Below are positions 9,301 through 10,175 of a DNA stretch of 64,000 bases, in pieces. Made by a program: the position numbers and the translations under genes. The notes under the pieces are model-generated. The model searched no databases. It was not told the origin of the DNA and saw only the letters and a list, made by a program, of their open reading frames with translations. Position 1 is the stretch's first letter; the number at the start of each line of letters is the position of its first letter. The stretch comes from Natrinema saccharevitans. GTDB lineage: Archaea; Halobacteriota; Halobacteria; Halobacteriales; Natrialbaceae. Location of the stretch: contig NZ_LWLN01000001.1 of assembly GCF_001953745.1 (NCBI RefSeq), positions 1,860,001 to 1,924,000 on the forward strand, given 5' to 3'.

Positions 9301-9340
9301 TTAGGCTGACCAAAACCTTTTTAGATTTAGGCTCACCTAA
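9301..9340 (+). promoter_or_regulatory. Two DtxR/SirR-type iron boxes around a TATA box
   Basis: TTAGG-CTGA-CCAAA at 9301-9314 and the perfect inverted repeat TTAGG-CTCA-CCTAA at 9327-9340 bracket a TATA-like TTTTAGAT at about 9319-9326. DtxR-family metalloregulators bind interrupted palindromes of the TTAGG/CCTAA type. The second box covers the stretch between TATA and the ATG at 9350, where a bound regulator would block transcription. The assignment is by pattern; no regulator gene is in the window. Confidence 0.6.
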
Positions 9341-9349
9341 CTCCTCGTG

Positions 9350-9517
9350 ATGGACGTACCCGCCCGCAGGGAAGAGCCCGAACGCGACGAGGACCGCGAG
9401 GAACCGGCGGCGGTCGTGACGAGCCACGAGACCCGCCCCGGGAAGACCGTTTTTACCGAACGCGACAACAGCGACGGCTGGATCGCGACCGATCTGACCG
9501 TCGACCTCGAGCGGTGA
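9350..9517 (+). CDS. 55-residue acidic protein under probable iron control
   Basis: ATG at 9350, TGA at 9515-9517. The peptide begins MDVPARREEPERDEDREE, is very charged, and ends GWIATDLTVDLER. It has no membrane segment or signal. Codon use is haloarchaeal, the promoter has a TATA box at the expected 27-base distance, and DtxR-type boxes frame it, all of which argue for a real gene despite its size. Function is unknown; by context it may belong to the iron or metal response, like dpsA next to it. Confidence 0.65.
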   Translation: MDVPARREEPERDEDREEPAAVVTSHETRPGKTVFTERDNSDGWIATDLTVDLER

Positions 9518-9629: not shown

Positions 9630-10175
9630 TCAGTGCGTCGCTTCCTCGAGGACCAGCGTGTCGTCTTCGAGGTAGTGTTCGAAGTGGTGGCCGTCCTCCT
9701 CGAGGTCGACGAGGATCTCGCGGAGGATCTCGGCGGTGGCGTGGTCACCGAAGTTCTCCGCGAGTTCGATGCTGTCGCGCGTCGACTCGATGATGTCGCC
9801 GTACATCTCGAGGTCGTTCTCGAACATCGTGCGGACGTCGTAGACGTCCTCGCCCTCGAACTCGACGGTGGCGCGCTCTTCCTGGTTCGCTGGCCCAGAG
9901 ACGGGGACGCCGCCCAGCGCTTGCGCACGCTCGGCGATGATGTCAGCGCCCTCCTCGACGTTCTCGTAGGCCTCCTCGAGGAACTCGTGGAGCGGGAGGA
10001 ACTCCGCACCCTCGACGGTCCAGTGGTGCTTTTTGAGCTGGTGGTAGAGGACGTAGGCGTTTGCCAGCTCCGTGTTCAGTGCGTCGACGATCTGTTCGGC
10101 CTTCTCCTGCTCGAGGCGAAGCTCGTTCTCCTCGACGGTGTCGGCCGACTGGCGAACGGTCTTTTGGGTACTCAT
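9630..10175 (-). CDS. dpsA: Ferritin-like DNA-protecting protein DpsA
   Basis: The 181-residue Dps-family protein oxidises and stores iron in a 12-subunit shell and limits hydroxyl-radical damage. The ferroxidase-site pattern is present: His51 in KKHHWTVEG, His63, Asp78 and Glu82, with the exact Dps spacing (12, 15 and 4). The rest of the helical bundle (DHATAEILREILVDLEEDGHHFEHYL) is typical of halobacterial DpsA. TTTAAG, complementary to 10203-10208, lies about 30 bases before the ATG as TATA box, with a DtxR-type box further upstream. Confidence 0.93.
   Translation of the reverse strand: MSTQKTVRQSADTVEENELRLEQEKAEQIVDALNTELANAYVLYHQLKKHHWTVEGAEFLPLHEFLEEAYENVEEGADIIAERAQALGGVPVSGPANQEERATVEFEGEDVYDVRTMFENDLEMYGDIIESTRDSIELAENFGDHATAEILREILVDLEEDGHHFEHYLEDDTLVLEEATH

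Follow-up and report, generated by a model that had tools for sequence, protein, structure and literature searches.

The question raised by this locus is whether a gene of only 55 codons, lying beside a gene for a Dps-type mini-ferritin and carrying two palindromic sites in its promoter, belongs to the iron response of its haloarchaeal host, and what its product might do there. The window, by which we mean the whole 64-kb stretch of DNA that was analysed, is part of a 3.98-Mb haloarchaeal genome of Natrinema-like character, and the closest named relatives at the small-gene locus are Natrinema mahii and N. thermotolerans (96% protein identity). A sequence-only reading of the window had described two TTAGG-type boxes flanking the TATA box of a tiny, highly charged protein gene next to dpsA, one of them a perfect inverted repeat, and had proposed control by an iron regulator of the DtxR family, a proposal that it tied to the presence of homologs and of conserved boxes in related species.

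The arrangement is collected in Table 1. The two boxes do stand on either side of the TATA-like element, dpsA is indeed the neighbour, the two genes converging with a stop-to-stop gap of 112 nt, and the 55-residue translation is highly charged as described. The claim of a perfect inverted repeat holds for the 5-bp arms of the downstream box and fails for its four-base centre, which is not palindromic. The right half of the upstream box (CCAAAA) overlaps the BRE-like element, and the mRNA leader of the small gene would be very short or absent altogether (leaderless). Three TTAGG-type sites occur in the window, giving six strand matches where shuffled sequence leads one to expect 0.53 ± 0.86, and none of 100 shuffles of the window reached six. 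No known RNA family was found in the region, and a scan of it for bacterial-type promoters and terminators, which does not cover archaeal promoters, returned nothing useful.

Table 1. Features of the small gene, its promoter and the convergent dpsA gene (positions are those of the window).
Feature	Position	Strand	Basis or remark
Upstream iron box TTAGGCTGACCAAA	9301..9314	+	Sequence motif
BRE/TATA-like core promoter CCAAAACCTTTTTAGA	9310..9325	+	Sequence; position and sequence kept in 40 family loci, and across the class
TATA-like element TTTTTAGA	9318..9325	+	Sequence
Downstream iron box TTAGGCTCACCTAA	9327..9340	+	Arms perfect over 5 bp; lies between TATA and ATG
55-codon gene (ATG at 9350, stop codon ending at 9517), small acidic protein of a divergent DUF7331 subfamily	9350..9517	+	Open reading frame, orthologs, codon pattern
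dpsA, Dps-type mini-ferritin, convergent partner	9630..10175	-	NCBIfam NF041388, 291 bits
Iron-box-like element TTAGGTATACCAAA	10232..10245	-	-70 to -57 of dpsA, 5' of TATA-like TTTAAG

The homologs are there: orthologs of the 55-residue protein were found in all 29 genomes of the genus, in 125/125 genomes of the family, drawn from 29 genera, and in 306 of the 342 genomes of the order, representing 84 of its 89 genera. Members of this protein family are about 45-60 residues long, and six positions (M1, N40, D42, G43, W44 and D48) are invariant among 67 of them, some of these residues being favoured by the motif used in locus retrieval, [GDN]NxDGW[IL][AS][TS]D. Third codon positions differ about twice as often as the first and second, and in the conserved core the ratio rises to about three; the coding constraint on the small protein is clear from this pattern. 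The possibility that the frame is a non-coding ORF is ruled out by this codon-position pattern together with the conservation of the protein across the order.

The boxes are conserved alongside the protein. Loci from 80 named genomes were retrieved solely by protein similarity, and at least one promoter box is present in every one of them (80/80), and with homologs and boxes both present, the proposal of the earlier reading passes the test of relatives comfortably. The downstream box is exact at 70 of the 80 loci, and at the other 10, Natronomonas and Halorubrum loci among them, only the upstream box is found; the reverse situation, a downstream box alone, is seen at L171, L172 and L178. The spacing of the two boxes is fixed at 26 bp in most loci, and in 63 of the 70 loci with an exact downstream box this box starts 22-23 nt 5' of the start codon. 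Within these 70 the half-sites of the upstream box are conserved at 74-97% and its three variable centre positions at roughly 58-65%, while the flanks near -40 to -28 are low in information; as the subset was chosen on the exact downstream box, its downstream half-site conservation is circular, and the unbiased figures are the 70/80 and 80/80 given above. A near-invariant block, ctTAGG-cgACCAAAAcCtTTTTAGA-TTAGG-N4-CCTAA, is common to 40 loci of the family, with variable sequence just 5' of it, and additional genera of the family and divergent copies follow the same block pattern. Outside the family the box was found at 37 of 38 additional loci, and the set of box-bearing genomes takes in the deep-lying lineage Actinarchaeum (L148).

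What the box signifies is best judged from the other genes that carry it. A pattern search of the 3.98-Mb genome found 14 exact TTAGG-N4-CCTAA sites, and the genes examined behind them encode three Peripla_BP_2 siderophore-type binding proteins, an SBP_bac_6 solute-binding protein, a TOBE-domain ABC ATPase and a short DtxR-type protein. About half of the 14 sites lie roughly 17-28 nt 5' of a start codon, which is the geometry seen at 9327-9340, and the small gene shares both the site and a comparable position with the iron-uptake genes of its own genome. From its distribution, we take it that the box acts as an iron box in this genome. The same genome holds three DtxR-family genes, two of which score above the Pfam cut-off for the metal-binding domain, and one of the three combines a full metal-binding domain with an FeoA domain. 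Candidate iron regulators of this family in Haloferax are Idr, SirR and TroR, and signals of the ferR regulon precede fhu genes (PMC11349517). The small gene resembles the known haloarchaeal DtxR-family iron regulon (FerR/TroR/Idr/SirR; Halobacterium, Haloferax) in its palindromic site and in a promoter geometry like that of the own-genome uptake genes, and differs from it in carrying two boxes around the TATA element. No target of that regulon like the small gene, convergent with dpsA, is described in the literature examined. Comparison has thus come down in favour of control by an iron regulator, since the box is kept at all of the named-genome loci and also stands 5' of iron-uptake genes in the same genome. 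Iron regulation of the small gene is strongly supported on these comparative grounds, and the gene very likely belongs to the haloarchaeal response to iron starvation as a component that has escaped notice.

Other occurrences of the box in this genome are recorded here as observations in their own right. Four exact boxes fall in one cluster (L001; own genome C1:515000-534000), ahead of genes for a solute-binding protein and for glycosyltransferase-like, RGP-like and gluconate 2-dehydrogenase subunit 3-like proteins, and an iron box over sugar-related genes is unexpected. Two exact boxes 36 bp apart (L006:3810-3859; C1:3141809-3141858) lie some 100-140 bp 5' of a gene whose sole domains are DUF7551/DUF7552. 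Lastly, the genome has a second DpsA gene, in convergent orientation to a gene for a DtxR-type protein of 128 aa; this regulator gene bears its own exact iron box (L003:3447-3980, L013:1318-2451; C1 near 2540946), and a 43-codon ORF lies between that box and the start of the DtxR-type gene.

The protein itself offers fewer clues. Against DUF7331 (Pfam PF24018), a group of small haloarchaeal proteins of unknown function, it scores 24.8 bits (gathering cut-off 27, E 3.1e-5) over 50 residues, and 55 of 67 subfamily members match DUF7331 at E <= 0.01; in terms of sequence, it is a divergent relative of that family and not a full member. DUF7331 is multi-copy and present in 286 of 293 genomes of the order. 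Neither an exact box nor a dps gene was found at 22 mainstream DUF7331 loci, both other copies in the present genome included, and a single one of these loci has a one-mismatch match to the box, at an unrelated position. The subfamily of the window protein is therefore set apart by its iron boxes and its linkage to dps. The AlphaFold model (pLDDT 73.5, pTM 0.42) shows nothing more than a beta hairpin preceded by a disordered N-terminus. Searches by sequence found no relative with a solved structure, and a fold search with the model returned no match at E <= 0.001, the best (E 3.2) being a bare hairpin; a hairpin-only model and the lack of a fold match mean that there is no structural sign of DpsA binding. 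We found no papers on DUF7331, and no published account of the 55-residue protein in the literature searched: the main text of the Haloferax iron proteome paper makes no mention of such a protein, and papers on Haloferax and Halobacterium locus tags taken to be dpsA or its neighbours contain nothing on it.

Outside the family, a Dps gene is convergent with the small gene within 1 kb at 28 of 38 loci, near it in another layout at 3 more and absent within 1 kb at 7 (layouts were counted by eye from a table). Among the 41 most divergent named loci, 31 have a Dps gene inside the examined stretch. The Dps proteins are of two types; where a genome carries two cassettes, each Dps type has its own type of small protein next to it, and both small genes are boxed. 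Distances among the small proteins correlate with those among their Dps neighbours (Mantel r 0.80, 0/999 permutations), although linked genes share ancestry, and so the correlation speaks for a cassette inherited as a unit and does not demonstrate binding. The gap between the small gene and dps ranges from 0 to about 750 nt, and some pairs are same-strand or divergent. In other haloarchaeal families, single islands (L180, L188 and L191) hold a dps2-type gene alongside a boxed small gene and one of the dtxR type.

About half of the dps promoters have a box of their own. An exact or one-mismatch box lies 5' of dps in 49 of 97 promoters; most of these boxes fall at -68 to -72, some 30 bp ahead of a TTTAAG-like TATA. 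A site 5' of the dpsA TATA would be in an activator-like position, from which archaeal regulators commonly activate, and its placement suggests iron-dependent activation of storage at dps promoters; by the same token, control opposite to that of the small gene is implied. Reportedly, TroR was found to repress uptake and to induce storage under iron sufficiency.

With these observations in hand, it is reasonable to postulate that the small-protein gene is an iron-repressed member of a DtxR-family (FerR/TroR/Idr-type) regulon whose product acts on the iron of DpsA, a reading to which, taken whole, we assign a probability of roughly 0.7. Iron-dependent repression by a DtxR-family protein is the firm part of it and in our judgement highly likely. 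When iron is ample, an iron-loaded dimer of the regulator would occupy one of the boxes or both, mask BRE/TATA as well as the start site, and thereby block assembly of TBP, TFB and polymerase into a preinitiation complex. The upstream box runs into the BRE-like CCAAAACC, the downstream one takes up the space from TATA to start codon, and a dimer on either would hinder TFB/TBP or polymerase; the loss of one box with retention of the other in some lineages is as expected if either box suffices. When iron is scarce the repressor would leave, and synthesis of the 55-residue protein would set in alongside that of the uptake systems for siderophores and Fe(III), whose genes have the same box and spacing. 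In the simplest model, the two convergent genes would be controlled in opposite directions, with DpsA up and the small protein off under ample iron and the reverse under scarcity.

The role of the product is the more tentative part. As the gene is kept convergent with a Dps-type gene across haloarchaea, the likeliest target of its product would be the iron held by DpsA, a proposal that we hold at somewhat short of even odds. During starvation, the small protein might aid the release of stored iron or stop its further capture. Counting against this are the 7 loci outside the family that lack a Dps gene within 1 kb, and the fact that linkage of small gene and dps may be inherited with no physical interaction. 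Bfd, the bacterioferritin-associated ferredoxin, is a small protein that is expressed at low iron and genetically linked to the gene of a storage protein. In Pseudomonas it is the partner of BfrB and is required to mobilise stored iron from bacterioferritin (PMC7760384). The resemblance is one of layout, a small protein tied to an iron-storage protein and a linked ferritin-family gene, and no similarity of sequence or fold was found. The candidate partner of the window protein is a 12-mer Dps, whereas that of Bfd is a haem-containing bacterioferritin, and the window protein has neither conserved cysteines nor a [2Fe-2S] site: it contains no cysteine at all, and none is invariant among the 67 members. 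Membership of the Bfd-type ferredoxins is ruled out, as the four cluster cysteines are missing. A Bfd-like role at DpsA would be played by other chemistry, without an Fe-S cluster. A haloarchaea-wide iron-starvation family that binds Dps mini-ferritins and controls iron release or uptake without an iron-sulphur cluster, and so a dedicated Dps partner of an undescribed kind, is a bolder proposal and a slightly more doubtful one.

The alternative that fares best accepts the iron regulon and gives the product another task, such as that of an adaptor or anti-regulator for a DtxR-family protein or of an iron-sparing factor, with adjacency to dps reflecting merely a shared role in iron; we consider this quite possible, though well under an even chance. 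A DtxR-type gene does adjoin the small gene and dps in the three islands mentioned, and the boxed regulator gene of the present genome is itself convergent with the second dps. Moreover, the other DUF7331 paralogs have no link to iron genes, so that partnership with Dps does not come with the fold as such. Set against this, linkage to dps (31/38) is far more frequent than linkage to dtxR (3/38), and the two-cassette genomes pair each Dps type with its own small-protein type. It is improbable that the locus works mainly at the RNA level, through read-through from the small gene in starvation that would yield an antisense RNA to dpsA and lower DpsA synthesis, the protein being secondary. The genes are convergent in 28 of the 31 adjacent cases outside the family, and no simple terminator was found between the small gene and dpsA, but the protein is constrained and conserved across the order, the gap is anything but constant, and some pairs are not convergent. 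A shade less probable is that a manganese- or other metal-sensing DtxR paralog reads the boxes, so that the gene would answer to a metal other than iron: the three DtxR-family proteins best match MntR-type models, although far below equivalog cut-offs, while in this genome the same box stands before uptake genes of the siderophore and Fe(III) types, and the neighbour is a mini-ferritin. Chance matches in an AT-rich promoter before an unimportant ORF, suggested by the AT-rich context common to the downstream box and the TATA region, are hardly credible and are ruled out by the conservation of the box among loci, its spacing in most of them, and the control paralogs without exact boxes.

Returning to the reading we prefer, that of an iron-repressed gene whose product acts on DpsA iron, the regulator and the box are of known kinds, and the protein joins the regulon as a so far uncharacterised member with a haloarchaea-wide distribution. 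To our knowledge, the exit of iron from Dps mini-ferritins within the cell is poorly understood. The locus is also a well-defined natural example of paired repressor sites placed around BRE and TATA in archaea, and some lineages have retained the upstream box alone or the downstream box alone. The small protein, predicted to be switched by iron in the direction opposite to DpsA, a neighbour of dps in most haloarchaea examined and duplicated along with it, would be a direct and testable candidate for a role in Dps iron release.
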